In this document: positions 7,065 through 48,413 of the stretch, piece after piece
How positions within the stretch are numbered: the stretch's first letter is position 1
Layout of the letters: the number at the start of each line of letters is the position of its first letter
NCBI RefSeq assembly: GCF_019218265.1
Contig: NZ_JAHUZE010000007.1
Location: 1 to 48,413, forward strand
DNA: 48,413 nt
Direction of reading: 5' to 3'
Source of the DNA: Maritimibacter dapengensis
GTDB taxonomy: Bacteria; Pseudomonadota; Alphaproteobacteria; Rhodobacterales; Rhodobacteraceae
Translations under genes and position numbers: made by a program
The notes under the pieces: generated by a model
Told to the model about the DNA's origin: nothing
The model's database searches: none
The model's input: the letters and a program-made list of their open reading frames with translations, nothing else

Positions 7065-7079
7065 TGGCCCCTCCTTTTT

Positions 7080-7095
7080 TCTAACAAATGTTAGA
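7080..7095. promoter_or_regulatory. Operator-like palindrome, site 1
   Basis: TCTAACAAATGTTAGA: 7-bp arms TCTAACA/TGTTAGA around two bases. It lies 15 nt upstream of the start at 7064, between that gene's Shine-Dalgarno and the end of the CoA-transferase gene. The same motif recurs at 10741, 14352, 26955 and 29418, always ahead of a transcription unit. The size and symmetry fit a TetR-family dimer. Confidence 0.8.
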
Positions 7096-7127
7096 TTACC
7101 GATTCAAAACCTGCCCGTCAACGGGAT

Positions 7128-8264: not shown

Positions 8265-8274
8265 CTTCACTGCC

Positions 8275-9132: not shown

Positions 9133-9155
9133 GATCTTTCCTCCCTTGATCGCCG

Positions 9156-10307: not shown

Positions 10308-10310
10308 GGC

Positions 10311-10688: not shown

Positions 10689-10740
10689 TGGCGTTCTCCT
10701 TCAAGCGACCCAGTCTTTGTTTAAGCGTATTGATAATCTT

Positions 10741-10756
10741 TCTAACAATTGTTAGA
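10741..10756. promoter_or_regulatory. Operator-like palindrome, site 2 (perfect)
   Basis: TCTAACAATTGTTAGA is a perfect 16-bp palindrome in the 104-bp region between the divergent DUF35 operon (start 10688) and the CoA-transferase pair (start 10793), so one bound dimer could control both. It is the best copy of the repeated motif. Confidence 0.85.
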
Positions 10757-10792
10757 TTTAGTCAACCTTTCAGGATCAATTGAGAGAAACTC

Positions 10793-11938: not shown

Positions 11939-11956
11939 AAAACGGTAGGCAACTAA

Positions 11957-13135: not shown

Positions 13136-13156
13136 CCCCACCCGGCACCGGACGGA

Positions 13157-14314
13157 TCAAACATCCATCGAGCGTGCGATCAGTTCCTTCATGATCTCGT
13201 TGGTGCCGCCATAGATCATCTGGACCCTGCTGTCGGCATAAAGTCGCGCGATGGGGTATTCCATCATGAAACCGTAACCGCCGTGCAGTTGCAGGCATTC
13301 ATGCATGACCTCGTTCTGCGTCTGGCTGCCCCACCATTTCGCCATCGAAGCCGTGGCCGCATCAAGTTCGCCCGCTTCAAGACGCGCGAGCCCGTCATTT
13401 ACGAAGGAGCGTAGCAATTCGGCCTTGGTTTTGCATTCCGCCAGTTTGAAGCGTGTATTCTGGAAGTCCATGATCCGGCTTCCAAATGCCTTGCGGTCCT
13501 GAACATATTTCACCGTTTCATCGATCGCAAAATCAATAAAACCGAGCGCGGTAATGCCGATCATCAGCCGCTCCCAAGGCAGCTGCTTCATCAGCTGGTA
13601 GAACCCCTGCCCCTCTTCCGGACCAAGCAGGTTCGCCGTGGGCACGCGCACATCCTCGAAGAACAGCTCAGCAGTATCCGAACCTTTCATACCCAGTTTC
13701 TTCAGGTTCCGTCCCCGGCGAAAGCCCTCGGCGCCCTCGGTTTCCAGAACGATCAACGAAACGCCCTTGGCGCCGGCGTTGCGATCGGTCTTTGCCACGA
13801 TAACAACGAGATCCGCCGTGTGCCCGTTTGTGATAAAGATCTTCGAACCGTTGATCTTGTAGTGGTTGCCATCCTTTTCCGCATAGGTTTGTACGTTCTG
13901 GAGGTCAGAGCCCGTTCCAGGCTCGGTCATGGCAATCGCCGCAACGCTGTCGCCGCTGACCAGTTTCGGCAACCACTTTTTCTTCTGTTCCTCACTGCCA
14001 TATGCGTTGAGATAATGGATTACGATGGACTGAATCCCATAGCCCCAACCCGTATCACCGGTGCGCCCCTGCTCGTAGACGGTAATCGCGTCGAACCCGA
14101 TGCCGCCACCGAACCCACCATATTCTTCGGCAATCGAGCCACCCATGACACCCTGCTGACCGACTGTTTTCCAGAAGTCGCGGTCAACAATTCCCTGCTC
14201 CGCCCATTTTTCAATCTTCGGAGCCATCTCTGCATCGAAAAGCCTGCGTGTACTATCGGCGAACATCTTGTGTTCATCCACTGCCCAACTCGGGGAGTTC
14301 TTGATCAGAGACAT
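13157..14314 (-). CDS. Acyl-CoA dehydrogenase
   Basis: A 385-residue, apparently complete ACAD. It has AIAMTEPGTGSDLQNVQT (FAD/substrate binding), KINGSKIFITNG, LHGGYGFMMEYPIARLYAD and the C-terminal QMIYGGTNEIMKELIARS, whose Glu in TNEI fits the catalytic base of the short/medium-chain branch. AGGAA precedes the ATG. It is a single-gene unit with its own operator-like palindrome at 14352-14367 and converges with the CoA-transferase pair. It should pass electrons to the ETF encoded just upstream on the same strand. Confidence 0.9.
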   Translation of the reverse strand: MSLIKNSPSWAVDEHKMFADSTRRLFDAEMAPKIEKWAEQGIVDRDFWKTVGQQGVMGGSIAEEYGGFGGGIGFDAITVYEQGRTGDTGWGYGIQSIVIHYLNAYGSEEQKKKWLPKLVSGDSVAAIAMTEPGTGSDLQNVQTYAEKDGNHYKINGSKIFITNGHTADLVVIVAKTDRNAGAKGVSLIVLETEGAEGFRRGRNLKKLGMKGSDTAELFFEDVRVPTANLLGPEEGQGFYQLMKQLPWERLMIGITALGFIDFAIDETVKYVQDRKAFGSRIMDFQNTRFKLAECKTKAELLRSFVNDGLARLEAGELDAATASMAKWWGSQTQNEVMHECLQLHGGYGFMMEYPIARLYADSRVQMIYGGTNEIMKELIARSMDV

Positions 14315-30550: not shown

Positions 30551-32295
30551 TGCAAAATTGACCCTGTAGAGGGGTGATCGGCGTCCAAAAATGACCCCCT
30601 TACAATGATGTGGATGATGCCCCCGAGGTCATCGGGGAGCGCAGTGTGGGATGTTGGTCGTGGAGACGATAGCGAAGATCCGGCGGGCGTATTTTCAGGA
30701 CAAGAAGTCGATCAAGCAGATCTGCCGTGAGCTGCGGGTATCTCGGAACACGGTGCGCAAGGTGATCCGGTCGGGTGCGACGGAGCTCACCTATGAGCGA
30801 ACCATTCAGCCGCAGCCGAAGATCGGGCCCTGGAAAGACATGCTGGACGAGATGCTGGCGGTGAATGCGCGGAAGCCCAAGCGCGAGCGACTGACCCGCA
30901 TTCGGATCTTGGAAGAACTTCGGGCCCGAGGTTATGATGGCGGCTATGATGCCGTCCGGCGATACGCGGCCTCCTGGTCCAAGGAGGAAGAGGTGGCATC
31001 TGCCGCGGCCTATGTGCCGCTAAGCTTCGATCCGGGGGAAGCCTACCAGTTTGACTGGAGCCACGAGATCGTGGTGATCGACGGCGTGACAATCACCGTG
31101 AAGGTCGCCCACGTTCGCCTCTGCCACAGCCGGATTCTGTTCGTGCGGGCCTACCCGCGCGAGACGCAGGAGATGGTGTTTGACGCGCACGACAAGGCCT
31201 TTGCCTTCTTCGGTGGAGCCTGCGCGCGGGGCATCTACGACAACATGAAGACGGCGGTGGATACGATCTTCGTCGGCCGAGACCGCGCCTACAATCGCCG
31301 GTTCCAGCAGATGTGCGGGCACTATCTGGTCGATCCGGTGGCATGCACCCCGGCCTCGGGCTGGGAGAAGGGCCAGGTCGAGAACCAGGTCGGTGTGGTG
31401 CGGCGACGGTTCTTCGTGCCCCGGCCGCGGTTCAAGAGCCACGCCGAGCTCAACGCCTGGCTCGAGGATCGCTGCGTTGCCTGGGCCAAAGCCAATCCGC
31501 ACCAGGAGCTTCGGGATCGAACGATCTGGGATGTGTTCCAGGACGAGCGCGCGAGTCTCGTGCCCTACGTGGGTCCGTTCGACGGCTTCCATGCCGTGCC
31601 GGCGTCGGTCTCGAAGACCTGCCTCGTCCGGTTCGACAAGAACCGCTACTCCGTCGATGGCCGGGCGGTTGGTCGTCCTGTCGAGATCCGCGCCTATGCC
31701 GAGCGGGTCGAGCTCTGGCAGGACGGCAAGATCGTGGGGCAGCACGCCCGAGCCTTTGGGCGCGACAAGGCCATCTACGACCCGCTGCACTACATTCCGG
31801 TTCTGGCTCGCAAGCCTGGGGCCCTCCGGAACGGTGCCCCCTTCAAGGACTGGGACCTGCCGGCGGCGATCAGGCGCGTGCAGCGCAAGCTTGGCAAGGT
31901 GCCGAACGGCGACCGGCAGATGGTCCAGATCCTCAGCATGATCCCGATCGATGGGCTGGATGCAGTGGACGCTGCCTGTGCCGAAGCCCTGAACGAAGGG
32001 GTTCCCGCGGCCTCAGTCGTCCTCAACATCCTGGCCCGGCATCGGGAGCCGCCACCGCCGCTGACCATCGATACACCGGAGGCGTTGCGACTGACCTGCG
32101 AGCCCGTGGCCGATTGCAAACGCTACGACAGCCTCAGGAGACCCAACCATGGAAAGATCACAGGTGCTGGACGCGATGAGCCAGCTGAAGCTCTACGGCA
32201 TGAAGGCCGCCTACGATGAGATCATCACCACGGCGGTGAAGCGTCAGCACGAGCCGCAACAGATCGTCGGCGACCTGCTGAATGCCGAGATCGAC
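30551..32295 (+). mobile_element. IS21-family insertion sequence, right end missing
   Basis: The left end is at 30551 (TGCAAAATTGACCC), with a related inner repeat at about 30584 (CCAAAAATGACCCCC), the multiple-repeat terminus typical of IS21. It carries complete istA and only the first part of istB. No matching right inverted repeat was found, because istB switches in frame into plasmid sequence at about 32295. The element can no longer move by itself. Confidence 0.85.
30651..32219 (+). CDS. istA: IS21 transposase IstA
   Basis: A 522-residue IS21-type DDE transposase. An N-terminal helix-turn-helix (KSIKQICRELRVSRNTVRKV) is at about 19-38. The catalytic residues are visible as YQFDWSHE (first Asp, about 135), IYDNMKTAVD (second Asp) and GWEKGQVENQVG (Glu). 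A C-terminal beta-barrel region follows. It overlaps istB by 71 nt. The protein appears intact, but it lacks a full IstB partner and a right transposon end here. Confidence 0.95.
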   Translation: MLVVETIAKIRRAYFQDKKSIKQICRELRVSRNTVRKVIRSGATELTYERTIQPQPKIGPWKDMLDEMLAVNARKPKRERLTRIRILEELRARGYDGGYDAVRRYAASWSKEEEVASAAAYVPLSFDPGEAYQFDWSHEIVVIDGVTITVKVAHVRLCHSRILFVRAYPRETQEMVFDAHDKAFAFFGGACARGIYDNMKTAVDTIFVGRDRAYNRRFQQMCGHYLVDPVACTPASGWEKGQVENQVGVVRRRFFVPRPRFKSHAELNAWLEDRCVAWAKANPHQELRDRTIWDVFQDERASLVPYVGPFDGFHAVPASVSKTCLVRFDKNRYSVDGRAVGRPVEIRAYAERVELWQDGKIVGQHARAFGRDKAIYDPLHYIPVLARKPGALRNGAPFKDWDLPAAIRRVQRKLGKVPNGDRQMVQILSMIPIDGLDAVDAACAEALNEGVPAASVVLNILARHREPPPPLTIDTPEALRLTCEPVADCKRYDSLRRPNHGKITGAGRDEPAEALRHEGRLR

Positions 32296-32889
32296 CAGGT
32301 GACGTCCTGGCTGGCCACCGAAATCCTCGCGCTCAGCGAGTTTTTGACCTCGTACTGGGAAGAGATCGATGACGCGATGTTCGAGCACCTTTGGCAGACC
32401 GAGGTCGACGCTGTGCCGGAGTTCACCACCTCGAAGATCACGCTGATCTGCGGGCTTCTCCTGCCGATCTGGGACCGGCTACCTGCCGACAACATACGCA
32501 TCTATCGCCTGCAAACCGAAGACGGGGAACGCGCCATCGGCCGTCTGGTCAGCCAGGAACAGCGCTCGAACGTCTACGCGCGCCTTGGGCTCGACTGCCA
32601 GATCGAGATGTCGCCGCAGGAGGAGCTCGCGGCCGTGATGGACGCCAGGACGACCCTGAACCTCCTCGGCGGTTACCAGCTGCGCAGGTCGCTCGTCATG
32701 GGGCAGCCGAGGTGTGAGCTGATCGGCGCGTCCGGTGCGGCCCTGCCCGCACTGAAAGCCATGGGCTGCTTCACCGAGGTTATCCAGTGGAAGACGCGGG
32801 TGTTCATCCCGGTGGACGGTACTGACGTGCTGGCGCGGGTGCTCGCCGAGCATCCAGTTGGCGCAAGCGTCGCAGATGCTGCCGCATGA
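32149..32889 (+). pseudogene. In-frame chimera: IstB N terminus fused to strawberry-notch-type C terminus
   Basis: A 246-residue open frame. The first 50 or so residues are IstB (MERSQVLDAMSQLKLYGMKA, HEPQQIVGDLLNAEI); the Walker motifs of IstB are absent. From about residue 52 it becomes the C-terminal region of the large strawberry-notch-like helicase proteins of alphaproteobacterial plasmids (VTSWLATEILALSEFL, EVDAVPEFTTSK, LLLPIWDRLP). The frame is kept across the junction, so a stable fusion may be made, but neither parent function is expected. It overlaps the next gene by 4 nt (ATGA), preserving the original plasmid gene order. Confidence 0.8.
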
Positions 32890-35845: not shown

Positions 35846-37201
35846 ATGGGCGGCAGTATAGAACAGTTCCTTCAAGAGCTCGAGCGGGGCCTTGGCCGGA
35901 CCATGGTCTCGGTCAACAAGGAGTTGACGATGCGCGAGCGCATCAAGCGCTCTTGGTCGATGCGCCAATGTGCTCGCTTCCTGAACATTAGCCATCAGCA
36001 TCTGACGAAGTTCGCTAAGGACAATGAGGATTTTCCTGCCGGCAAGCATGTAGGGCGCGAGCGTGTTTTCACCCTGACGGAGCTGATGCACATCCGGGCT
36101 TTGATGGCTGCCTCAGCAAAGCGGCCTGAGCATTTTCTTGCTTGGCGCAAACCCGACGATCCTTTGCCCGTTATTTCGTTTGCAAGTCAGAAAGGTGGAA
36201 CGGCGAAGTCGCTTAGTGCTGCGCACTTCGCTCAGTACCTGAGTCTGCACTACGGCATGCGAGTCGGCGTCATGGACGCTGACCCCCAGAGCACGATCAC
36301 GCTCTATTTTGTCGGCGGCGAAGAAATGCCAACTTTGCCAGATGACGAAACTCCGACGATGGTTGACTTCGCGGGGCTGTTTCAGACCGACGAATCCATC
36401 CCCTACACTGACTATGATGCGGAGACGCTTGACGGGTTTTTCAAGAAAACGTCCTGGCCGGGCGTGCGGCTAGTACCTGCGCATGGCGAAACCTCAGAAG
36501 GTGAAATTCAGATCGCGAGGTTGTTGCGAGCGGGCACCCCGGAAAAGCGGTTCTACAGGTTCCTAAGAGACTCCATAGATCGTTGGAAAGAGGGGAATCC
36601 ACCGGTCACCCGTCCGAATGAACTGGTGAGCAACGGTAGGGTCGACCAAACGAAGCTTGAAAGTGCCCTCAACGAGACCTTGGACTGCATCATTATCGAC
36701 TATCAGCCTGCGCTGACACTGTTCCAGCTGAACAATGTGATGGCGTCTACTTCGTTGATTATCCCGCAGACGATGAAGGGGTTCGACATTGCGACCTTGT
36801 CCACCTTTGTGACTGGTCTCCTCACTATGCTGCGCCACATTTTCGCGACGGATCGGATCGATATGGGCGGTGCGGCACATATGCTGTTGCCCACGATCGT
36901 GCAGAGAACAAATGAGCAAGATCTCACACAGGTCGGCAACCTGCTCGAAAACTGTCCAGATGAGGTGCTGCCGGTATTCTATCTTCGCTCTGATGCTATT
37001 TCGAACGCGTCGGACGTTTATCAATCCGTCTACGAGTACGACCCAGATACGCCAGGCAAGCGAAAAGGCATCAACAGGTTCATCGAGAATGCTGACGCTG
37101 TGAATGACGCCATCGTCTCACGCCTCTGGCCTGGTCTTGAGCGTGGCTATGCCGAGGATTGGATGCAGAACTTCTACAATTTCGAGGAGGAAGCCGAATG
37201 A
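35846..37201 (+). CDS. repA: RepA, ParA-type partition ATPase of a repABC replicon
   Basis: A 451-residue ParA-family protein. The N-terminal DNA-binding region (SMRQCARFLNISHQHLTKFA) is at about 38-57. The deviant Walker A reads SQKGGTAKSLSAAHFAQYLS (residues 114-133), and VGVMDADPQST is Walker A' near 140-150. The P-loop Thr/Ser pattern (KGGTAKS) departs from the usual KGGVGKT. It partitions the plasmid with RepB and represses the operon. The stop overlaps the repB start (ATGA). Confidence 0.95.
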   Translation: MGGSIEQFLQELERGLGRTMVSVNKELTMRERIKRSWSMRQCARFLNISHQHLTKFAKDNEDFPAGKHVGRERVFTLTELMHIRALMAASAKRPEHFLAWRKPDDPLPVISFASQKGGTAKSLSAAHFAQYLSLHYGMRVGVMDADPQSTITLYFVGGEEMPTLPDDETPTMVDFAGLFQTDESIPYTDYDAETLDGFFKKTSWPGVRLVPAHGETSEGEIQIARLLRAGTPEKRFYRFLRDSIDRWKEGNPPVTRPNELVSNGRVDQTKLESALNETLDCIIIDYQPALTLFQLNNVMASTSLIIPQTMKGFDIATLSTFVTGLLTMLRHIFATDRIDMGGAAHMLLPTIVQRTNEQDLTQVGNLLENCPDEVLPVFYLRSDAISNASDVYQSVYEYDPDTPGKRKGINRFIENADAVNDAIVSRLWPGLERGYAEDWMQNFYNFEEEAE

Positions 37202-38241
37202 AGCGAACACTGAGCAGCTCGGTCCTCAAGAAAAAGCCCACGCGCCCAGATGAGGATGTGTCTGCGGCTCCTGGATCTGGTGCAAGCGATCAGATTCACG
37301 AAGACGAAGCGAAACTGGTTGGTGGGGTTAAGCCAAGACTGGGCGGCTCTGGCAGTGCTTGGAAGGCCGGAGCGCTTTCAGACGCCAGCCAGATGCTTCA
37401 CGTTGAGCGCGCACAGGTCGTGGAGCGCATTCTCGCGGGTCGACATGAGTTACAGATTGATCCGTCTCAGATCGTGGACGTGATTGGATCGGACCGGCGT
37501 GAAGATTGGCGCGACCAAGAGGCATTTGAGAAGCTCAAAGAGAGTATCGAGAAGAATGGTCAAGATACGCCCATTCATGTTCGGCCAGCGGATCCTGATT
37601 GGCGACCGGATGAACGTGAGCCCGAGAACGTAGAAGGCGTGACATTCCAGTTGATCGTGGGTCGGCGACGCCATGCGATCCTTGAAGCTTTGGGATTGCC
37701 TGTCCGCGCCATTCTGGTTCCACAATCCCTTCGGGGTTCCCGTGAAGAGCAGTTCGAGATGCTATTCATGCGCTTCCGGGAGAATGAGGAACGTGAAAAC
37801 CTCAGCGCTTTCGAGCGCCTGGTTTCGATAGGCGAGATGTTTGAGCGGCTACAAGATGCCAAACCGAACGAGAAGATAACCGCAACCGAGTTCGCCAAGC
37901 GTGTGGGTGTCCATAACAGCGCGGTATCACGTGGTCGCGCTGTCTATGCCGCTAGAGCTGAGATTTTGCACGCGTGCAAAGATGTCTACGATCTCAGCCA
38001 CCGTGACCTCGAAAAGGTTCTTGGTGACCTGACTGAGAAGCAGTCCAAGCCTGTAAAAAAGAAATCACAAAGCCCAAAGAAACTCACGGTACAGCGAAAG
38101 ATCGGTTCGCGGAAATTGAGTGTCACAGGGCAGGGCGGGAAGCTCTCGGTCGCTGCCACGGGGTTAACATTGGACGAGGACATTCTCAGAGGTTTGAGTG
38201 ATGTCATCGCTGAGTATTTGGAGAAACACGGATCGAAGTAA
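37198..38241 (+). CDS. repB: RepB, ParB-type centromere-binding protein
   Basis: A 347-residue ParB-family protein. The N terminus is the RepA-contacting MKRTLSSSVLKKKPTRP. The ParB/Srx-like domain starts at IDPSQIVDVIGSDRREDW, LIVGRRRHAILEALG and RENEERENLSAFERLVSIGEMF follow, and the helix-turn-helix is in TEFAKRVGVHNSAVSRGRAV. It overlaps repA by 4 nt. A copy of the parS-like palindrome lies within its coding sequence (37964-37981), so RepB can bind its own gene. Confidence 0.95.
   Translation: MKRTLSSSVLKKKPTRPDEDVSAAPGSGASDQIHEDEAKLVGGVKPRLGGSGSAWKAGALSDASQMLHVERAQVVERILAGRHELQIDPSQIVDVIGSDRREDWRDQEAFEKLKESIEKNGQDTPIHVRPADPDWRPDEREPENVEGVTFQLIVGRRRHAILEALGLPVRAILVPQSLRGSREEQFEMLFMRFRENEERENLSAFERLVSIGEMFERLQDAKPNEKITATEFAKRVGVHNSAVSRGRAVYAARAEILHACKDVYDLSHRDLEKVLGDLTEKQSKPVKKKSQSPKKLTVQRKIGSRKLSVTGQGGKLSVAATGLTLDEDILRGLSDVIAEYLEKHGSK
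37964..37981. repeat. Second parS-like palindrome, inside repB
   Basis: TTTTGCACGCGTGCAAAG has a 16-bp perfect core TTTGCACGCGTGCAAA, identical to the core of the site upstream of repA. It encodes ILHACKD in RepB, so its preservation also constrains the protein. Confidence 0.8.
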
Positions 38242-38320
38242 GAGGCAGGAGCCGCGGAGACGGTGGTCTTCGATCCAAACGAGGTAAGAAACAGGAGCGG
38301 ATATGCTTTGAGATAAAGGC

Positions 38321-38375
38321 AAAAGAAAAGCCCCCAAGCTGAGGGCCTGAGAGCTTATCAATATTAGTTTGGTCG
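38321..38375 (-). ncRNA. incA-type counter-transcribed RNA between repB and repC
   Basis: On the minus strand a good promoter (38381-38409) is followed by about 55 nt ending in a terminator: GCCCTC-AGCTT-GGGGGC (one G-U pair) and then TTTTCTTTT (38321-38346). The location in the repB-repC gap, antisense orientation and size match the ctRNA that represses RepC synthesis in repABC plasmids. The 5' end is inferred from promoter spacing. Confidence 0.8.
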
Positions 38376-38380
38376 CTATC

Positions 38381-38409
38381 ACGATAGTTCTCCGGCGAAT
38401 CACTGTCAA
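38381..38409 (-). promoter_or_regulatory. Promoter of the antisense RNA
   Basis: TTGACA (38404-38409, minus strand) is separated by 17 bases from TATCGT (38381-38386). This is a near-consensus housekeeping promoter pointing toward repB, consistent with constitutive ctRNA synthesis. The remaining sequence up to repC is its leader. Confidence 0.75.
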
Positions 38410-38475
38410 CAGCATCGCTCCTGAGCGAACGGGATTCTTTTGCCCTCCATCAAGCAGAGGAGGCGAGAACTATCC

Positions 38476-39756
38476 ATGAAACATACAGGTTGGCGCAAGC
38501 CGACACCGGGTCTTGGCATTGCAGAGCAGCTTGCCAAAGCCGGTGAACAGGTGGCTGTACCCAAAACGCGGGCCTTCGTGGCCGTGAAGCGGGTGGGGGC
38601 CTACATTGGCCTCAAGGCCGGAGACATGATGCTCCTCGACACGCTCGGGGCCTTTACGCAGGCCCAGGACTGGGACGAGGGGCAGCGCCCGATCGTCTGG
38701 GCGTCGAACGCCTATCTGATGGAGCAGACGGGCTTCTCGCTCTCCGCACTCAAGCGGCATGCGCGGCGGCTGGCCGAAATCGGCGTGATTTCCTTCCAGG
38801 ACAGCCCGAACGGCAAGCGGTGGGGCCGCAGGGACGCCGAGGGGCGCATCATCGAAGCCTATGGCTTTGATTTGTCGCCGCTGTCGGCGCGTGTCGAGGA
38901 GTTCGAGGAGCTCCATGCCGATTTGCAGGCCGAGCGCGAGCTCTGTCAGCGCCTGAAGCGCCAGATCACGGTTGCACGCCGTATGATCCGCACTCGGATC
39001 GAGGCGGCCGTCAGCAGCGCGCTGCGCGGGCCCTGGACGCAATTCACAGGCCTTTTCGAGGAACTTCTGGACCGGCTTCCGCGCCGTCACGAAGCCTCAG
39101 AGCAGCTTGCACGGCTGCTGGGCTGGTTCAAGGAGCTTCAGGAACGCGTTGAAGCTGCCTATCTCAAAGCAACCGATGTCGTCCAACTTGTGGAAAACAC
39201 ACCTGAAACCAAGGAACAAGCTTCTGAGAAGACTCAAGAAATGAACCCCAGGGAGGTCATTTCTGACCCTCATATACTAATTACAAACCAACTTAATCCT
39301 GTAACTCGTAATTCCTCAGAAAATGAGGAAGTCGCGGCCGTGGTGCCCAATGCTCGACCCGAAGATCAGGTTGATAGGGAGCTGGAAGAATGGGTTGCTG
39401 AGGTGCGTAAGAAGCGGGCGGCGCTGGATCTGCCTACTGTTATGCAAGCCTGTCCCGAATTCGCATCCTGGGCGCGCAATATGGGCGGGTTCCTAAAGGA
39501 TTGGGGCGATCTGCACAGGGTTGCCGGGCAGCTCAGGCCGATGATCGGGGTGTCCGAGCATGCCTGGAACGTTGCGCAAGACCGGCTGGGCAAACAGGTG
39601 GCGACAGCGGCGTTGGCGCTTGTCTTCGAGAAGCATTGCGCGGGCGAAGTTTCGTCGCCGGGCGGCTATCTGCGCGGCATGGTCGAGAAGGCCGGGGCAG
39701 GGGAGCTGCATCTCGAGCGCAGCTTCTATGGCAGGCTCAGCGGGCAGGCGGCGTGA
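38476..39756 (+). CDS. repC: RepC, replication initiator
   Basis: A 426-residue RepC initiator. The N-terminal conserved part has HTGWRKPTPGLGIAEQLAKAG, the DNA-binding winged-helix region has LDTLGAFTQAQDW and YLMEQTGFSLSALKRHARRLAEIG, and the C-terminal domain has GGYLRGMVEKAGAGELHLERSFYG. The central linker (about 235-300) is low-complexity and encoded by AT-rich DNA. The start at 38476 matches the family N terminus; a TTG at 38440 is in frame but not homologous. It is under ctRNA control and converges with a recombinase gene. Confidence 0.95.
   Translation: MKHTGWRKPTPGLGIAEQLAKAGEQVAVPKTRAFVAVKRVGAYIGLKAGDMMLLDTLGAFTQAQDWDEGQRPIVWASNAYLMEQTGFSLSALKRHARRLAEIGVISFQDSPNGKRWGRRDAEGRIIEAYGFDLSPLSARVEEFEELHADLQAERELCQRLKRQITVARRMIRTRIEAAVSSALRGPWTQFTGLFEELLDRLPRRHEASEQLARLLGWFKELQERVEAAYLKATDVVQLVENTPETKEQASEKTQEMNPREVISDPHILITNQLNPVTRNSSENEEVAAVVPNARPEDQVDRELEEWVAEVRKKRAALDLPTVMQACPEFASWARNMGGFLKDWGDLHRVAGQLRPMIGVSEHAWNVAQDRLGKQVATAALALVFEKHCAGEVSSPGGYLRGMVEKAGAGELHLERSFYGRLSGQAA
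39186..39330. other. AT-rich stretch within repC, probable origin of replication
   Basis: This is a distinctly AT-rich block (for example CATATACTAATTACAAACCA) inside an otherwise GC-rich gene. In repABC plasmids the origin maps within repC at such a stretch. Assignment is by position and composition only. Confidence 0.5.
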
Positions 39757-39768
39757 TGGGGCAGAAAA

Positions 39769-40896
39769 TCAGAGACCGGCGGCCTTTGTCAGGTTCACCC
39801 GGAACCGATCGCGGCGGCGCTGGTAGCGACGGGTCATCTCTGCCGAGGCATGCCCCAGCTGCTTCTGGACGTAGCGTTCGTCAACTTCGGCCGAACTGGC
39901 GAGCCCGGCGCGAAGGCTGTGACCGGAGAACAGCGCCAGGCGCTCTTTTTCGGTCAGCTCGGATCGGATGCCGGCGTCCAATACCGTACGCTTGATCAGG
40001 CGCGCGACATGCTTGTCGTTCAGCCTGTTTTCGGAAGCGCGTTTGCCGTCCCTCGACGTACCGACGAAGACCGGGCCGAAATTGATCTTCGCGAAATGCA
40101 GCCATTGCTCAATAGCATGCACGGGGCAGGTCTGATCCTTGGAGCCGCGGCCGATCTCGACTTCACGCCAACCGGTCTTGGCGTTGAGAGTCAGGAGGGC
40201 GCCTTTCTCCATGATCTCAATCCATCCGCCGGAATCTGGCGTGTCATCTTTATGTACATCGAGGCTCACGATTTCCGAGCGGCGCAGGCCTCCGGCATAG
40301 CCCAGCAGCAAGATTGCCCGATCTCGCAGCCCGCGCAGATCGTAGGGCAGGGTGGCTATCATCGCGAGGATGTCCTCGGCGAGGATAGCGGCCTTCTGGA
40401 CCGGCGGTCGCGCATGCTTACGCTTGATCCCGGCCAGCACGGTGGCGATGTGGCGGTTCTTGCGATCAAGGGTGAAGCCGCGCTGCGCGTAATTCCAGGC
40501 GAGACCGGACAGGCGGCGATCGATGGTGCTGACCGACAGGGGTCGGGACGCCGACTGCGAAGGGGAGGTGCCCGACCCGGACGCAAGATCCGCGAGGTAC
40601 AGGCCGATCATCTCCGGTGAGGGGGGCAGCGGCTCCGCGCCCTTCATCCGGCACCAGCGCGCGAAATGCGCCCAGTCCTTTGCATAAGCCTTCAGCGTGT
40701 TGTCAGATGCCGCCGCGCGCGCATAGTCGCGTGCCGTATCGACCAGGCGATCGAGCGTGCCCGAGCCAGCCACAAAGGACGGCAGGCTCAAGGCCTCGCC
40801 GTCAGGACCATCTCTCTCGCTGTCCTCGTTGGGCGAAGACCCGATTGGCGGCTCTGAGGTCGGTTTCTCGGTGTTTTCTGACATGTCGCCGAGCAT
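39769..40896 (-). CDS. Tyrosine recombinase/integrase
   Basis: A 375-residue site-specific recombinase. It has a SAM-like N-terminal domain (SDNTLKAYAKDWAHFARWC) and a catalytic domain with Arg in AGGLRRSEIVSL (about 205), Lys240, HSLRAG (His326, Arg329), LGHAS (His349) and the nucleophile Tyr358 in TRRYQRR. It may resolve plasmid multimers or act as the integrase of an island. The start at 40896 is uncertain (40884 also possible); neither has a strong Shine-Dalgarno. It is convergent with repC and divergent from DUF1403. Confidence 0.92.
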   Translation of the reverse strand: MLGDMSENTEKPTSEPPIGSSPNEDSERDGPDGEALSLPSFVAGSGTLDRLVDTARDYARAAASDNTLKAYAKDWAHFARWCRMKGAEPLPPSPEMIGLYLADLASGSGTSPSQSASRPLSVSTIDRRLSGLAWNYAQRGFTLDRKNRHIATVLAGIKRKHARPPVQKAAILAEDILAMIATLPYDLRGLRDRAILLLGYAGGLRRSEIVSLDVHKDDTPDSGGWIEIMEKGALLTLNAKTGWREVEIGRGSKDQTCPVHAIEQWLHFAKINFGPVFVGTSRDGKRASENRLNDKHVARLIKRTVLDAGIRSELTEKERLALFSGHSLRAGLASSAEVDERYVQKQLGHASAEMTRRYQRRRDRFRVNLTKAAGL

Positions 40897-41009: not shown

Positions 41010-41963
41010 ATGACATACCAGCCCGCCAAGATCTCCAACGACCTGAGCACCCTACCGCAGCTGCCGGGCTGGGTCACCTCCGGACGTGCGGAAACCCTTG
41101 AAACTGTGGCCTTTCGATCGGGGGCGGCGCTGACGGTGCTCGATCAACTGATCAGCGATCCCAGGCATGGCGTGCCGCTGAAACTACTGGCCAACCGACT
41201 GGCGCTGAGTGCCGCAGTGGCGACCTCGAAACTGGAAGGACGGCTGGTGCGGGAAGTCGATATCCGCGATGCCTACCATCTGACGCCGCCGGGCGAGGCG
41301 CGCGGTCCCGATGGCGATCTGCTGGCCTTCTGGCGCGAGGCGGTGCGGCTTCGGCTGAATGGACCCGGCGAGATCGCAGACCTGATCGGGCCCGACCGCG
41401 CGGAGGATGTGGCCGGTTGGTTGGACGCCGGGCAAGATCGGGCCCGGACTCATGGGCCTCTGGCGGGATGCGTGGCCGTCCTGCGTGCCGTTTTGGAGAC
41501 CGATGACCGAGGAGAGCGGGTCGCTTGCTTGCTGTCCGATGTCGTCCTGGCGCGGGCCCTGAACTGGAAGGTGGTGTTACCGGTTACGGCGCAGCGGCTG
41601 ACGAAGGCCGCATTGCGCGACCTGACAGCAGAAGGGCAAAGGGCCGAGCTGGCAGTCCAGGCGCGGATCCTCGAGTCCATCGAGGCTGTGATCCGGCTGG
41701 CGCGGGATCTCGCCCGCCGCGCCGAGGCACTTCGCACCGTCGCGCCGAAGCTCCGGGCGAAGGGATCGGATGCCGCGGTCGAGCTGTTCCTGACCGAGGA
41801 TGCGGTGTTGCCTGCGTGGATGCTGTCGCCGCGTATCCGCGGAACAACGATCCCCATGACCGATCGCGCCGCGCGGCGGTTCTGCGATCGATTGGTCGAA
41901 CTGGGCGTGGCACGGGAGCTAACCGGACGGCCGACCTTCCGGCTCTATGGGATCGCGCCATGA
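41010..41963 (+). CDS. DUF1403 family protein
   Basis: A 317-residue protein matching the DUF1403 pattern: an N-terminal PGWVTSGRAETLETVAFRSGAAL segment, a central helical part with RAVLETDDRGERVACLLSDVVLARAL, and a C-terminal winged-helix-like end, RAARRFCDRLVELGVARELTGR. Function is unknown. It is translationally coupled to scpB (ATGA overlap), which suggests a role in DNA organisation or segregation. The ATG at 41010 follows the divergent promoter region. Confidence 0.8.
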   Translation: MTYQPAKISNDLSTLPQLPGWVTSGRAETLETVAFRSGAALTVLDQLISDPRHGVPLKLLANRLALSAAVATSKLEGRLVREVDIRDAYHLTPPGEARGPDGDLLAFWREAVRLRLNGPGEIADLIGPDRAEDVAGWLDAGQDRARTHGPLAGCVAVLRAVLETDDRGERVACLLSDVVLARALNWKVVLPVTAQRLTKAALRDLTAEGQRAELAVQARILESIEAVIRLARDLARRAEALRTVAPKLRAKGSDAAVELFLTEDAVLPAWMLSPRIRGTTIPMTDRAARRFCDRLVELGVARELTGRPTFRLYGIAP

Positions 41964-42565
41964 CGACCGCGACCCGGAAACGGAAACCGGTGGACGAGGG
42001 AGGCGCCGGCTTTGACCGGGAGCTCGATGATCTGCCGCAAGAGTTGCGCTGGCGCGAATGGATGGGGCGGGTCGAAGCGGTGCTGTTCGCCAGTGCCTCG
42101 CCGGTTGGCCGCGACGATCTCGCGCGCGTGGTGGGGCAGGGGGCCTCGGTCGAGATGCTGATCGAAGACATCCAGGCCGAGTTGACCGGCCGTCCCTACG
42201 AACTGGTTCAGGTCGCCGGCGGCTGGATGTTTCGCACCAGGACGCAGTTTGCAGATGCCATCAAGGCGGCTGCCGATATTGGCGACCAGACGCTCGCCTT
42301 CACCGAGATGGAGATGGGGGTGCTCTGCGCCATCGCCTATCATCAGCCGATCGACCGCGCCGGCTTGGCCGACATTTTCGGCAAGGAGGTCAGCCGCGAT
42401 CTTCTGGCCCGGCTGCGGTACAAGGATCTAATCGCCAGCGGGCCGCGGTCGCCGCGTCCTGGGGCGCCGCATACTTTTGTCACAACCGAGACGTTTATGG
42501 TGACGTTCGATCTGCAGAGCCTGCGGGATCTGCCGGAATTGGAGCTGGTTCAACACCCAGCCTAA
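41960..42565 (+). CDS. scpB: ScpB-like segregation and condensation protein
   Basis: A 201-residue ScpB-family protein with two winged-helix units: RVEAVLFASASPVGRDDLARVVG, then ELVQVAGGWMFRTRTQFADAI and LAFTEMEMGVLCAIAYHQPIDRAGLADIFG. In chromosomes ScpB works with Smc and ScpA; here no scpA or smc lies nearby and the partner is a DUF1403 gene. A plasmid version could recruit host condensin or act independently in partition. It is followed after 107 nt by the Argonaute operon. Confidence 0.85.
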   Translation: MTTATRKRKPVDEGGAGFDRELDDLPQELRWREWMGRVEAVLFASASPVGRDDLARVVGQGASVEMLIEDIQAELTGRPYELVQVAGGWMFRTRTQFADAIKAAADIGDQTLAFTEMEMGVLCAIAYHQPIDRAGLADIFGKEVSRDLLARLRYKDLIASGPRSPRPGAPHTFVTTETFMVTFDLQSLRDLPELELVQHPA

Positions 42566-42672
42566 TCGGCTTCGCTCAAGCAAACTGCCATGTCCTACAT
42601 GTTGTAGTCTGCGCCTTACGAAACGCTGATTGAAGTGCTATCTCTGTCATATGGAAGGTACGGGTCATTGGC

Positions 42673-44007
42673 GTGAACAAGAAGATTACTGCCAGTCAGC
42701 GAATTGGCGAAATCGGGGAGAAGGCGGCAAATCTTCAATTCTTGCGAATTGGGTTCCAATTCGATGGGCGGTCACGTCTGGAAGCGGGTATCGACGGCAT
42801 CGCTGAGGTGATGGACGATGATCAACCGACAGCGAAGATGATTGCCGTGCAGGTTAAGGCTACCGAGAGCGGCAGCTATTCTGGAGAGACTGATGCCGGG
42901 TTCTCCTATCGTGTCCGCGCTTCGGACTTTGATTATTGGCGCGGCTCCAACCTACCCGTAATTCTCGTTCTCTACAGGCAATCGGATGACACGTTCTTTT
43001 GGAAGTCGCTCGAAAACCTCGTTGGCGAGGCCGAACGCACATTGCAGTTCGACAAAGAGCGCGACGTCTTGGACGGACGTGCGAAGGATCGCCTCGCTGC
43101 CCTGACTGTCGCCAAGCAAGGACACGGCTACTATGTCCCGCCACTTGGGGGAGGGGAGGAAGCGATCATCAACATGGTGCCATTGCAGCTTCCTGAGGAA
43201 ATCTTCGTCGCACAGACTCAGCTCTCCACCCAGAAGGCGCTCGCCCGGATGAACAAGGTCCGGGAAGACCAGCGGTACGATTGGATGATCGATGAAACCT
43301 CGCTTTGGACATTCTGCGACCCACTAACCACACCCGTTCGCGACTTGGTCGAACGGGATCAGGTCGAACGGATCGAAACCGACTTTCTGGCGCAACACGA
43401 CGCCGTAGATCAGCAGCACAAATTTGCGGGCCTGTTGCGACATACTCTGGCGCATGACTTTCGGGACTTGCTTGGGTGGGACCGAAAGAAAAAACAGTTC
43501 TACTTCTTGCCAACACCTGGAAGCGTCGCGCGCAAGTTCCGCTATCTTGGCGCGAAGCAGAAGACGCAGGCCGACGTTGTCAGCGTCTATCAGAAGTCAA
43601 AGGGGGAGGGGCCCGTCGACTATGTACGGCACCATTCATTCCACCCTCGGTTCGAGCGCTTGGCGGATAAATGGTACCTGATCGTCAACCCATCCTACTA
43701 CTTCACTTCAGATGGAGAACGCGCGCTCAACTATCCGGATGCCTTGTTGTCCGGCAAGAAACGCCTCGACACGAACAGCACAGTTCGAGGCCAGGTGATC
43801 ATGTGGCATCGATTGCTATCGGGTATGGATTTTGAAGATGCCGGCGAACTGCTGACGCCCGACACCAAGACGGATCGCATCATCAAGTTCGGTCTTCCGC
43901 CTTCCGTCGAACTGCCAAAGAGCGTGCCCGAGGATGTGTGGGGCGCGAAGGCGCAGAAGTCGAAGAAGCCACCCCACTCCGATGAACAAGGCAGCTTCGA
44001 CCTATGA
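42673..44007 (+). CDS. DREN-APAZ nuclease subunit of a SPARDA-type short Argonaute system
   Basis: A 444-residue protein. The first 150 residues form a DUF4365/PD-(D/E)XK-type nuclease: [18 protein letters not shown], then GIDGIAEV with Asp41 and IAVQVKAT with Gln60 and Lys62. The remaining part, to DEQGSFDL, is APAZ-like (analogue of PAZ), with the helical [15 protein letters not shown] and a KKQFYFLP strand. In SPARDA systems this subunit pairs with a short pAgo and becomes a collateral DNase/RNase once guide RNA finds target DNA. The GTG start is used: the nearby ATG at 42651 is out of frame. It overlaps the Argonaute gene by 4 nt. Confidence 0.88.
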
Positions 44008-45479
44008 GCGACTTCAAGACCAAAATCTTCCCGGAGCCCGAACTGGAGTTTGGCGACCAACACCATCATCCTGATCCGCGATTAGGGTTGCTACAGGCGG
44101 GCCCACTGCAAACGAACCTGGGGGACACCATCAAAGTCGGCGTTGTTGGCAGCGCTCTTACCGTCGAAAAATCAGGCGAATTTCTGGATGCGATCAAAGA
44201 TGGGTTCGAGGGGAAGACCGAAAAGCACCCGAACCTGCACCCGGACTTTCCCGGGTTGAGAAATCAGAACCCCTATCGGTGCCGGTTCGAAATGGTGGCT
44301 GCCGACGTCGGTCTGCTGACGAAAGGTCAGATCGAGAAGATTGCCAAGGAACCGAGCGATGCGCGTGCTGTGGAGATGGCGGTCGATGCAGTTATGGAGC
44401 AACTGGAAAAGCTTGAGGCGCATCATGAACGGCCAGACGTGGTCATGGTTTCGCTCCCTGTCAAGCTGATCGAACGAGTCTGGAGAAACGAGCAGGCGCG
44501 CGATGACGAGGTCGTAGAGGACAAAGCGGCCGAGGCGAAAGCTGGTAAGGAAACCTCTCCGAACTTCCGCGGTTTGCTCAAGGCCAGAGCGATGAATCTC
44601 AGATTCTCAATTCAGATTGTCTGGGAGGATGTCATCAACCCCGATGCCAAGATCCCTCGCAAGATCAAGGAGAACTCTGACCGCCAAACCCAAGATCGAG
44701 CTGATCTCGCATGGAACCTTATGACAACGCTCTACTACAAGGGCAGCGGCAAGGTGCCCTGGCGCAGATTGCCGGAAGAAGGCGAGTTCACCGCCTGTTA
44801 CATTGGCATCAGCTTCTTCAAGGATGCCGAAACCGACGAGATATGGACCAGTGCTGCGCAAATGTTCGACGAGCGGGGCAGAGGGTTCATTCTTAGAGGC
44901 GGTCCTGCGCAGTCAGAGTCGCGGGGTCGCCACCCGTTCCTCACTATCGATGAGGCTCACAAGCTCACCGAGAGTGCCTTGGCCGCCTACAAGTCGGTCC
45001 ATAGAACGATGCCGGCACGCGTGATCGTCATGAAGACGTCGCGCTTTCGCGAGGACGAGGCCGAGGGTGTTGGTAAGGCGCTCGACGAGGCAGGTGTGGA
45101 ACTGCGCGATCTCGTTTGGATTCATGAGAGCTATTCAGTCAAGGTGCTGCGCGACGGCGACTTCCCTGTCCTCCGCGGCACCTTCGTTGAACTGGACGGC
45201 AATGGGCTGCTCTATACCAACGGCAGCATTCCCTACTATGGGACCTATCCTGGCCTCTATGTCCCGAATCCCCTGTTGCTCTGTCCGCACCCGCAAAGCG
45301 AGAGCACGATCGAACAGATTGCGAAGGAAGTTTTCAGCCTCACGAAGGTGAACTGGAACTCGACCCAGATGAACCAACGCTTGCCGATTCCGATCCGAGC
45401 AGCGCGTAAGGTCGGTGACGTGTTGAAATACGTTCCCTCGGGGCAAAAGGTCAGCAGTGACTATCGGAAGTACATTTAG
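44004..45479 (+). CDS. Short prokaryotic Argonaute (MID-PIWI, catalytically inactive)
   Basis: A 491-residue short pAgo. The N terminus carries the family motif [10 protein letters not shown]...[13 protein letters not shown] (about 11-35). The MID domain covers about 40-250, with [17 protein letters not shown] near 191-207, where the guide 5' end binds. PIWI follows: ACYIGISFF (264-272) has Ser270 where active Argonautes carry the first catalytic Asp, the second site reads VMKTSRF, and the end [10 protein letters not shown] lacks the last acidic residue. It should bind guide RNA and complementary DNA but not cut; killing would come from the DREN subunit. The start overlaps the upstream stop (ATGA), as expected for an obligate heterodimer. 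Confidence 0.92.
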
Positions 45480-45512
45480 AAGTTGCACACCGAGCACGCC
45501 GTCGGCTCCATG

Positions 45513-45530
45513 GATGCTGTTAAGAGCATC
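45513..45530 (+). terminator. Weak hairpin after the Argonaute operon
   Basis: GATGCT-GTTAAG-AGCATC lies 34 nt after the pAgo stop. No T-run follows, so termination is doubtful. Confidence 0.25.
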
Positions 45531-45629
45531 TGATCGTCGTTCCTCGAAGCTCCCGAGTTTCCAGCGGATCTTTTTTCGGCAAGTGACTTCTCTGGCGTTT
45601 GATATATAAAAGCACATCATGCGCATGCC

Positions 45630-45693
45630 TTGATGTAGAACTCCACATCAATCTTGAAGTCTCCTTCAGTGAGTGATATGTTTATGCATATCA
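45630..45693. promoter_or_regulatory. Two candidate HipB operators upstream of hipBA
   Basis: Two inverted repeats with 7-bp arms: TTGATGT/ACATCAA at 45630-45651 and TGATATG/CATATCA at 45674-45693. Both lie in the AT-rich 240-bp region before hipB. HipB-type regulators usually bind several palindromes at their own promoter, which fits this pair. The rest of 45531-45723 holds no gene. Confidence 0.6.
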
Positions 45694-45723
45694 TAAATGG
45701 TAGAGGAAGCAGCAAGATAGATC

Positions 45724-46323
45724 ATGGGTTACGCAACGGAGCACATTGCAGAGTCGCTCAAAGCCGCGCGGGAACGCAAGGGGCTCTCTCAGCGCGCGCT
45801 TAGTGCGAAGGCGGGGGTTCCACAGAGCCACATCTCCAAGATCGAGAACGGGGCGGTCGATCTGCGTCTGTCCAGCCTGGTCGAGCTTGCACGTGTACTT
45901 GATCTGGAATTGACTCTGGTCCCGCGCAAGAAGCTGCCTGCCGTTCGGGCGATCATTCGCGGTGATGATGATGGTCACCGTGACGTTCAGAGCGCGCGTA
46001 AGGCAACGAACCTATTGCAGCGCCTTGATGACCAGATAGCAGCGCTTCCCAGTGAAACGCTCTCTGAGATTGTCGTTCAGGAGTTGCAGCGCCGGGCGCG
46101 CGAATTGATGCACTTCAAGCTTTCAGCCGATGATCTTGTTCAGTTGCAAGAAGCCTCTGCTGCCATGCAGGAGTTCCTGAGCGATCCGCGCAACTTGGAA
46201 GCGGTCGAGCAGGCGCAGAGCCAGTTGCGCATGTTGCGCAACGCACTCGCCCATGGCGCGGGTGTATCTGCACCATCCTTGCCGCGTCCGGCCTATCGTC
46301 TGGACGGTGACGATCGTGGCTGA
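45724..46323 (+). CDS. hipB: HipB-like XRE-family antitoxin
   Basis: A 199-residue protein with an N-terminal helix-turn-helix (residues about 20-45: LSQRALSAKAGVPQSHISKI) and a beta segment DLELTLVPRK as in HipB. It is much longer than E. coli HipB (88 residues): a helical extension from about 80 to 180 (LLQRLDDQIAALPSETLSEI and onwards) may mediate dimerisation or HipA contact. It should neutralise HipA and repress the operon. It overlaps hipA by 8 nt. Confidence 0.88.
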   Translation: MGYATEHIAESLKAARERKGLSQRALSAKAGVPQSHISKIENGAVDLRLSSLVELARVLDLELTLVPRKKLPAVRAIIRGDDDGHRDVQSARKATNLLQRLDDQIAALPSETLSEIVVQELQRRARELMHFKLSADDLVQLQEASAAMQEFLSDPRNLEAVEQAQSQLRMLRNALAHGAGVSAPSLPRPAYRLDGDDRG

Positions 46324-47533
46324 TGTCAGTGTCCTTGAAGTCCTGCTCTACGGAGAGCCGATAGGTACGTTGACGCGGGTCAGCGGTGATACCTCGCTCT
46401 TTGCTTTCTCTGAAGGCTATGTCGCCGATGCGGGCAGGCCGGTTCTGAGCCTCGGTTTCAAGAATGAGCTTGGGGAACTGACCACTGATTTCGGTACGCA
46501 GAACATGCACCTGCTGCCCTTCTTCTCAAATCTTCTGCCCGAAGGTCACATGCGGGACTATCTCGCCGAGCGCGCGGGCGTGAAGCCCGTCCGTGAATTT
46601 TTCCTGCTCTGGGTTCTCGGCGAGGACCTTCCCGGTGCGGTCACTGTTCGGCCCGCCGATGGTGAGGCGTGGCCCCCCGACGCTGATGATGGTGAAGATC
46701 ATCACGATGATCATCGAGATCAGGCGCTGAGGTTCTCGCTGGCAGGCGTTCAGTTGAAGTTCTCGGCTTTGGGAGACAAACAAGGCGGTCTTGCGATTCC
46801 GGCCAAGGGGGTCGGCGGCTCCTGGATCGTCAAGTTGCCAGCGCAAGGCTTCGATGCTGTCCCCGAGAATGAATTCTCGATGATGACGCTCGCGCGTCTC
46901 TGCGGCATGGATGTTCCGCCGATAAGGCTGATCGATGTTGCCGACATCGGCAACCTGCCCGAGGGCATGGATAAGGTCAGCGGTCAGGCGCTGGCGGTCG
47001 AAAGATTTGACCGTCTGAGTGATGGCAGCGCTGTTCACATTGAAGACTTCGCGCAGGTCTTTCGCGTTTATCCCAAGGACAAGTACGAGAAGGCAAGCCA
47101 GCGCAACATCGCACAGGTACTGGCCGCTGAATGCGGAGAGGCCGACATCGCCGAGTTTATCCGGCGGCTGACTTTCAATGTGCTGATCGGCAATGCCGAC
47201 ATGCACCTCAAGAACTGGTCGCTGATCTATCCGGATCGTAGGCAGGCAGCGCTCGCGCCGTGTTACGATTTTGTTTCGACCATTGCCTACATAGACGACG
47301 ACAAGGCGGCGCTCACCTTTAGCCGCACCAAGAAGTTCTCTGGGTTCTCGAAGGACGAGCTGTCGCACCTGGCTGCAAACGCCGGTCTATCCGAGAAGCT
47401 GGTTCTGGGAACCGCACGCGAGACTGTCGCGCGCTTCCATGAGCACTGGCAGGCCGAAAAGGGAAACCTGCCGCTGACCGCGGATGCGATCAAGGCGATT
47501 GAAGCCCATTTGCACACAGTGCCGATAGCGTAG
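46316..47533 (+). CDS. hipA: HipA-like serine/threonine kinase toxin
   Basis: A 405-residue HipA kinase. The N-terminal subdomain has LLPEGHMRDYLAERAGV. The Gly-loop region SLAGVQLKFSAL is at about 141-152, SWIVKLP holds the ATP-contacting Lys, and the catalytic loop IGNADMHLKNWS (about 291-302) carries Asp295. The metal-binding Asp318 is in CYDFVST. HipA kinases phosphorylate a translation component (GltX in E. coli) and cause growth arrest. A His/Asp-rich insert (about 122-135) precedes the Gly loop. GTG 46316 is used, because it gives the family N terminus and overlaps the hipB stop. Confidence 0.92.
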   Translation: MADVSVLEVLLYGEPIGTLTRVSGDTSLFAFSEGYVADAGRPVLSLGFKNELGELTTDFGTQNMHLLPFFSNLLPEGHMRDYLAERAGVKPVREFFLLWVLGEDLPGAVTVRPADGEAWPPDADDGEDHHDDHRDQALRFSLAGVQLKFSALGDKQGGLAIPAKGVGGSWIVKLPAQGFDAVPENEFSMMTLARLCGMDVPPIRLIDVADIGNLPEGMDKVSGQALAVERFDRLSDGSAVHIEDFAQVFRVYPKDKYEKASQRNIAQVLAAECGEADIAEFIRRLTFNVLIGNADMHLKNWSLIYPDRRQAALAPCYDFVSTIAYIDDDKAALTFSRTKKFSGFSKDELSHLAANAGLSEKLVLGTARETVARFHEHWQAEKGNLPLTADAIKAIEAHLHTVPIA

Positions 47534-47545
47534 GGGATTGGCAGA

Positions 47546-48300
47546 ATGGCAGAGAGTTTTTCGAACCGGCACGGCTACCGCAGCGCAGCCGCGGAGATAA
47601 CCGTTCACGAGGACGCGCCCGAAAACCTGCGCTATGCGATCCCGCTGATTGGGCAGGACATCGGCATGAGCCCGTCCGCCATGCGCCGGATCATCTGTCA
47701 GGTGTTGCTCGTCCCGCCTGACCGAAACAACTGGTCGGAGCACCCTAACATCTAAGAAGAGGTCGTCGGGCTTGTTGCCGACTGTCCTTGGTACAAGGTC
47801 TATGACATTGCTGAAGCGTTCCATAAGGCACTCGCGCAAGGGTTCAACGACAATGCAAGCAGGTTCGATGACCGGCTGAACCAGTTCATTGTCGAAAATG
47901 GCATCGGCTGGCATATGTACGACGGCCAGATAGTCTATCGCGGTTCCGAAGTATTTACCGGCGCGACACAGGAGGCGGTCGAAATCGTCGAACAAACCGG
48001 GCGCAGTGCCGCCGCACGCGAGATCCACGAAGCGCTGCGCCGTATTTCTCGGCGGCCGGAACCGGATGTGACCGGGGCAATCCAGCATGCCTGCGCCGCG
48101 ATGGAAGCGACCGCGCGGGATCTGGCCGGCGATTCCAAAGCAACATTCGGCCAGCTTGTAAAGCGATTGGACCTTCCAAAACCTCTTGATACCGCAGCCG
48201 AGAAACTGTGGGGCTATGCGTCCAATAATGCTCGTCACGGGTTGGAAGGACAGCAGGTTGATACGCCAGAGGCCGAGCTGGTTGTCAGTGTAGCTGTCAC
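47546..48300 (+). pseudogene. Abortive-infection (AbiJ-NTD4-like) gene with in-frame stop and disrupted 3' end
   Basis: The frame begins MAESFSNRHGYRSAAAEITV and runs to SEHPNI, then hits TAA at 47753-47755. It continues open in the same frame with EEVVGLVADCPWYKVYDIAEAF up to AIQHACAAMEATARDLAGDS and YASNNARHGLEGQQ. The first part matches the AbiJ N-terminal domain 4 pattern and the last part the Abi C-terminal helical region. One codon change therefore splits the gene. At about 48290-48300 the coding sequence gives way to transposon-end repeats, so the natural C terminus is also lost. It starts 12 nt after hipA. Confidence 0.75.
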
Positions 48301-48413
48301 TGTACCCTCATTAATCAGAATTGCCTTTAAAATTATCGTTTGTTTTCAGCGGCACGATGTACCCTTAATTTTCATATTGTACCGTTAATTGCCATACTGT
48401 ACCCTTTATTAGC
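48295..48413. repeat. Transposon-end array of 20-bp-spaced repeats (Tn7/Mu-like)
   Basis: TGTACCCTCATTAA (48301) is followed by TGTACCCTTAATT (48358), TGTACCGTTAATT (48378) and TGTACCCTTTATT (48398), the last three exactly 20 bp apart. An end beginning TGT with spaced inner copies is the layout of transposase-binding sites in Tn7-like and Mu-like elements. The body of the element must lie to the right, outside the window. The exact border (48295 or 48301) is not certain. Confidence 0.65.

Follow-up and report, generated by a model that had tools for sequence, protein, structure and literature searches.

A probable SPARDA-type short Argonaute operon behind scpB on a repABC-type replicon of Maritimibacter dapengensis

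Proteins in which a DUF4365 domain is joined to APAZ and which accompany short prokaryotic Argonautes (pAgos) were catalogued in PMC6299218; their biochemistry is described in PMC10810196 and their structures in PMC12205087 (all three cited from the available part of their text). TmuRE-Ago of Thermocrispum, which by description resembles the pair reported here in combining DUF4365-APAZ with a short pAgo, recognises DNA with an RNA guide, cleaves DNA nonspecifically and prefers 5'-OH guides with a 5' U (PMC10810196, same part). NbaSPARDA of Novosphingopyxis baekryungensis (PDB 9jsb, 9jsp, 9jsz and 9jt2; entries 9vx1 and 9vx6 have the same chain sequences) shares with our pair the gene order, domains, nuclease triad, guide pocket and PIWI-PIWI contacts, but differs in its APAZ-dimer and MID-MID contacts, and its own locus (L080), unlike ours, has no RepC or ScpB match. 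Both chains of XauSPARDA, for which an activated filament has been solved according to the entry title, and of the Enhydrobacter aerosaccus system (PDB 9qbq, 9qcc, 9qbl and 9qbp) are also homologous, the pAgos being 45-50% identical to ours in structural alignments. SPARTA, SPARSA and SPARHA likewise contain a short pAgo partner and match in fold; however, their effectors are TIR, SIR2 or HNH rather than DREN, and identity is 21-25% among the matches listed. Close relatives of the pair described below already have published structures and biochemistry.

The DNA analysed, hereafter the window, comprises positions 1 to 48,413 of the forward strand of contig NZ_JAHUZE010000007.1 of M. dapengensis (assembly GCF_019218265.1), 48,413 nucleotides in all. 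Judged by analogy with the systems above, its two adjacent genes (Table 1) very probably constitute an intact SPARDA operon, i.e., an RNA-guided, filament-activated collateral nuclease that Roseobacter-group plasmids carry as mobile cargo and that would limit phages and competing plasmids.

Table 1. Features of the defence pair and its plasmid neighbourhood in the window
Feature	Coordinates	Strand	Basis
repA (ParA-type ATPase)	35846..37201	+	Pfam AAA_31 5.2e-14
repB-like gene	37159..38241	+	ParB_N only 0.084, below cut-off; 96% identical to annotated ParB N-terminal domain protein in L007
repC	38440..39756	+	Pfam RP-C 1.2e-60, RP-C_C 2.2e-32
Tyrosine recombinase gene	39769..40896	-	Pfam Phage_integrase 4.7e-16
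DUF1403 gene	41010..41963	+	Pfam DUF1403 3e-93
scpB-like gene (setting rather than part of the defence pair)	41957..42565	+	Pfam SMC_ScpB 6.5e-32
Cargo block SPARDA-HTH-HipA	42589..48294	+	blastn against close loci; edges vary by locus
DREN-APAZ effector gene (444 aa, GTG start)	42673..44007	+	Pfam, PADLOC and PDB matches
DREN domain (DUF4365, PD-(D/E)XK), residues 13-143	42709..43101	+	Pfam; D41, Q60 and K62 present
APAZ domain, about residue 161 to end	43153..44004	+	Homology to 9jsb_D and PADLOC model; boundary borrowed from NbaSPARDA (available part of PMC12205087)
ATGA start/stop overlap of both genes	44004..44007	+	ORF coordinates
Short MID-PIWI Argonaute gene (491 aa, ATG start), predicted catalytically dead (Ser270)	44004..45479	+	PADLOC, PDB and Foldseek matches
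HTH regulator gene	45724..46323	+	Pfam HTH_3 4.5e-15
HipA-family gene, mechanical ORF	46253..47533	+	Pfam HipA_C 1.1e-48; start may be 46313 by annotated L005 relative

The identity of both proteins is supported by several searches. The first matches Pfam DUF4365 (E 1.9e-25, residues 13-143), the PADLOC REase-APAZ model Aga_REase-PNTD1-PNTD2 (E 1.1e-163, residues 1-436) and, among all PDB sequences, chain 9jsb_D before any other (E 2.1e-141, covering residues 1-427), followed by the 9qb entries; the Pfam search returned no separate APAZ match. The second matches PADLOC pAgo_I (E 1.8e-168, residues 4-491) and, first in the PDB, 9jsb_A (E 5.3e-217), again followed by 9qb entries, and its Pfam search gave AAA_22 alone, below threshold (E 0.095). 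Matches to solved SPARDA chains extend over nearly the full length of both proteins, with identities to NbaSPARDA of 50.9% (DREN-APAZ) and 62.7% (pAgo). When a ColabFold model of the pAgo (14 sequences) was searched with Foldseek, the first 22 matches were all SPARDA Argonautes (best 9vx1_A, E 3.0e-60), which we regard as support rather than proof because the pLDDT of the model averages only 63.0 and falls below 50 for 152 of the 491 residues (pTM 0.69). The pAgo is a short MID-PIWI Argonaute whose catalytic loss is judged from the first position of the tetrad: Ser270 sits in the motif GISF, at what we take to be the position of Asp in catalytic PIWI domains, and Ser is found there in 14 of 14 aligned rows. 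An earlier note, made from the sequence alone, had proposed a DUF4365 nuclease fused to APAZ, an ATGA overlap, a short MID-PIWI Argonaute with Ser in place of the first catalytic Asp and, overall, a SPARDA pair; each of these proposals was borne out, and neither of the contrary outcomes that it named was observed, since the first protein matches models bearing DUF4365 and APAZ and the second resembles MID-PIWI Argonautes both in sequence alignment and in its predicted fold.

The gene models are consistent with this assignment. The GTG start of DREN-APAZ is supported because the N-terminus of the protein aligns with MTKKITANQIIGEIGE of the solved DREN-APAZ chain, and the overlap suggests that both genes form a two-gene operon. 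DREN-APAZ also adjoins pAgo in the relatives' loci where both were matched (in L042, the DREN-APAZ match is split by approx. 1.4 kb). As far as can be judged from sequence, the pair is an intact operon of an already known kind and is probably functional.

The same note had placed the pair on a repABC-type replicon, approx. 3 kb from repC and beside scpB, and this placement holds: RepA and RepC match Pfam above threshold, with the RepB candidate below the cut-off, repC ends 2.9 kb upstream of the pair, and scpB ends 107 bases before the GTG. The replication region itself (35846-39756) is mosaic, with RepC 90-91% identical in L005, L013, L019, L025 and L077 and RepA/RepB only 26-31% identical. 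Elsewhere in the window (30651-32889), two adjacent ORFs resemble an IS21-type transposase and its helper.

The close copies of the pair, defined as the 20 with a full-length pAgo at least 96% identical (L003-L005, L013-L027, L038 and L077), occur in two settings. In 12 of them, scpB lies directly upstream of SPARDA, and among these 12 the HTH gene follows downstream in 11 and a complete HipA in 10. RepC was matched within the available locus DNA of nine scpB-type copies, weakly in L015 and L027 (24-27% or partial), and gave no match in that of L003, L017 and L024. In eight of the 12, the block from approx. 42589 to approx. 48294 is 95-97% identical, whereas scpB itself is only 67-68% identical (blastn), which argues that the cargo and the scpB module have been reshuffled. 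In the other eight close copies (L004, L016, L018, L020, L021, L022, L026 and L038), similarity to the window is confined to 42673-45480, which begins at the start codon and runs one base beyond the stop, and amounts to 91-94%; by DNA, these loci are colinear with each other over approx. 16.4 kb at 90-96%. In L004, the only one of them whose genes were scanned, the order is relaxase, VirD4-type coupling protein, SPARDA, GajA and GajB, with TrbL/VirB6 further on, and Gabija stands directly behind SPARDA (9542-13401; GajA 1.8e-238, GajB 2.2e-211). No RepC or ScpB match was found in 61 other relatives' loci (of 78), many of which are on short contigs. SPARDA copies with 91.2-100% DNA identity are present in other organisms, and in a family-wide sample of 198 genomes a strong match occurs in only three, the M. 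dapengensis genome included; both observations fit horizontal cargo.

The slot behind scpB was surveyed in the best 14 of 728 ScpB plasmid records (H61-H74), i.e., those with the most similar ScpB, by scanning one to three nearby genes per slot with PADLOC at 1e-5 (the scan covered H61, H62, H64, H65 and H67-H74). The next genes differ widely among these plasmids, and at least one scanned gene matched in nine of 14, or in ten if H66 (Sulfitobacter D7) is counted by homology, its pAgo sharing 97.8% identity with the window pAgo, which matched PADLOC. The matches are a helicase (H62, partial HamB only), PD-T7-1 (H64, approx. 3.9 kb from scpB), IetA and IetS (H65), AbiEii (H67), CapP (H68), PDC-S01 (H71) and SoFic (H72-H74); H61, H69 and H70 gave no slot match at 1e-5, and in H61 a CBASS phospholipase lies approx. 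4 kb further on. In S. alexandrii, AbiE is found behind scpB (AbiEii 8e-105). Defence-like genes are thus common occupants of this variable slot. Enrichment of the slot in defence genes is nevertheless unsupported, as three of five control stretches of the same plasmids also matched PADLOC (three of ten genes: PDC-M30B twice and a generic ABC ATPase as mad3), and slots and controls differed in how many genes were scanned at each place. In two plasmids, the slot contains a UPF0489 gene and, behind it, a HEPN-associated gene (L097, 7133-9091; L104, 7130-9083), possibly an undescribed defence pair, because neither gene matched PADLOC at 1e-5.

SPARDA appears to have moved between the two settings. 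A tree of 21 SPARDA DNAs built with FastTree (outgroup L028) does not separate the settings: L022, of the conjugation setting, is the first to branch off, and L017, from the scpB setting, falls within the clade of the conjugation setting, in a group whose support is 1.0. Counted on this tree, the setting must have changed at least three times. One copy per setting is present in Pseudoprimorskyibacter insulae CECT 8871 (contigs NZ_OMOJ01000010 and NZ_OMOJ01000009). Homologous recombination over the common 2.8 kb would explain both the mixed tree and the sharp edges of similarity. It has to be asked whether the plasmid, and not the cell, is what the pair serves, chiefly by excluding competing plasmids, which would account for its residence in replication and conjugation loci. 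The 20 closest copies, 12 behind scpB and eight of the colinear conjugation type, are in keeping with such a role, as is the interference of NbaSPARDA with plasmids as well as phages (PMC12205087, available part). However, location does not reveal the target, the same relative also acts on phages, and some more distant copies are on contigs longer than 1 Mb and may be chromosomal, and we therefore consider this role possible but doubtful. The broader proposal that, on Roseobacter-group plasmids, SPARDA is a two-gene cassette recombining between two unrelated backbones (the scpB slot and a conjugation operon with Gabija), engaged mainly in plasmid-versus-plasmid conflict and with the scpB slot acting as a plasmid defence locus, seems rather unlikely as a whole.

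Returning to a SPARDA nuclease acting against phages and competing plasmids alike, its mode of action can be approached through the working residues of NbaSPARDA, as named in the available part of PMC12205087, which were transferred to the window proteins. By this mapping, the nuclease triad (3/3), the guide-binding residues of NbaAgo (14/14: 5'-phosphate 3/3, first-base pocket 4/4, second base 3/3 and further contacts 4/4) and the PIWI-PIWI filament contacts (7/7) are all kept. Other contacts are kept in part, namely those of the DREN tetramer (5/7; N17 and R20 differ), MID-PIWI (2/4), the DREN-side (1/3) and MID-side (2/3) anchors and the Ago dimer (1/3), and none is kept for MID-MID (0/3) or the APAZ dimer (0/6). 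Conservation was assessed in relatives from the 78 loci and eight plasmid records; after matches with less than 90% coverage or with a stop had been dropped, 77 pAgo and 72 DREN-APAZ sequences (window included) were left, which clustered at 90% identity into 35 and 42 clusters, respectively, Nba itself (L080) included. The triad is identical to that of Nba in all 41 other DREN-APAZ clusters. Over the 34 other pAgo clusters, the 14 guide residues have a mean identity to Nba of 0.96 against a background of 0.71, and none of 5000 random sets scored as high. The DREN tetramer residues average 0.79 against 0.59 (9% of random sets as high), and the PIWI-PIWI residues 0.84, which is not significantly more than random residue sets of pAgo (15% as high). 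For the APAZ-dimer contacts the mean is only 0.19 (background 0.59), and 99.5% of random sets reach or exceed it, so the guide-induced APAZ dimer is probably not a feature of SPARDA in general, in line with the mild consequence reported when it is lost in NbaSPARDA (PMC12205087, same part).

Because the triad, guide and PIWI-PIWI residues of NbaSPARDA map as kept, the window pair is likely an active RNA-guided, DNA-triggered collateral nuclease. As shown for relatives, the short pAgo and DREN-APAZ would form a heterodimer, which would load a small 5'-phosphorylated RNA guide, probably starting with 5'-AU, since the window pAgo matches NbaAgo at each residue named as contacting the guide. By analogy with NbaSPARDA, for which the following steps have been demonstrated, pairing of the guide with invader DNA would drive PIWI-PIWI filament assembly, the filament would gather DREN domains into tetramers that cleave nucleic acids without discrimination, and this collateral cutting would kill or stall the cell. 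Phages and competing plasmids would be the most likely targets of the pair, which appears to be mobile cargo of Roseobacter-group plasmids and in the window occupies the variable slot behind repABC-integrase-DUF1403-scpB. Protection of a plasmid-bearing population from either, as the note had suggested, may be expected from the studied relatives. The filament step deserves comment, because several filament and dimer contacts differ (MID-MID, APAZ dimer and tetramer, as above) and PIWI-PIWI conservation does not rise significantly above background; activation might instead proceed through a different oligomer. We regard this as improbable, given that the PIWI-PIWI interface, whose loss abolishes Nba filaments (PMC12205087, same part), is wholly retained, and that filament structures are in the PDB for both Nba and Xanthobacter SPARDA (the latter by its entry title and 47-50% identical in structural alignments).

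SPARDA can nonetheless be lost: on a plasmid of Phaeobacter inhibens M633 (L004, 6670-8004), codon 200 of the DREN-APAZ gene is an in-frame stop, which separates the nuclease from most of APAZ; the annotation splits this gene in two and leaves the pAgo frame whole. That the window copy is itself decaying or silent, hitchhiking with the HTH-HipA genes, is most improbable, for although the M633 stop and a promoter scan that found no sigma-70-like site in 42300-45900 would agree with it, both window frames are open with functional residues kept, both proteins are 100% identical (as printed) in contigs of Thalassovita litoralis and Salipiger abyssi, and nine of the 20 closest copies have no HTH-HipA match beside the pair.

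The genome carries a second short-Argonaute pair on another contig (L006, G000:C8; minus strand, 8566-11355 and 7061-8569), in which a 929-aa SIR2, HATPase_c_4 and APAZ protein (PADLOC Aga_SIR2-PNTD1-PNTD2, 1162.6 bits) overlaps a 502-aa pAgo; a SIR2-Schlafen APAZ group is mentioned in PMC6299218 (available part). The last 119 bases of the window (48295-48413) recur at the start of that contig (C8:1-119) and also in C10. They thus form a repeat common to contig ends, possibly an insertion element at which the assembly broke, and do not by themselves place both Argonaute systems on one plasmid.

Literature searches, from which subscription journals were mostly absent, returned nothing on scpB together with repABC or on DUF1403, and, for Roseobacter with Argonaute, papers whose listed titles concern other subjects; the available text of a 2026 paper on Sulfitobacter plasmids (PMC13386836) contains neither Argonaute nor scpB. 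We make no firm claim that the plasmid setting of SPARDA is unreported. Because the molecule is already known, the value of the window pair is comparative. The comparison suggests that the nuclease triad and the guide pocket are general parts of the NbaSPARDA mechanism, whereas the guide-induced APAZ dimer may be peculiar to Nba. Moreover, the two plasmid settings, between which SPARDA sequences are interchangeable, provide natural pairs with which to ask whether suicidal defence benefits the plasmid or its host.
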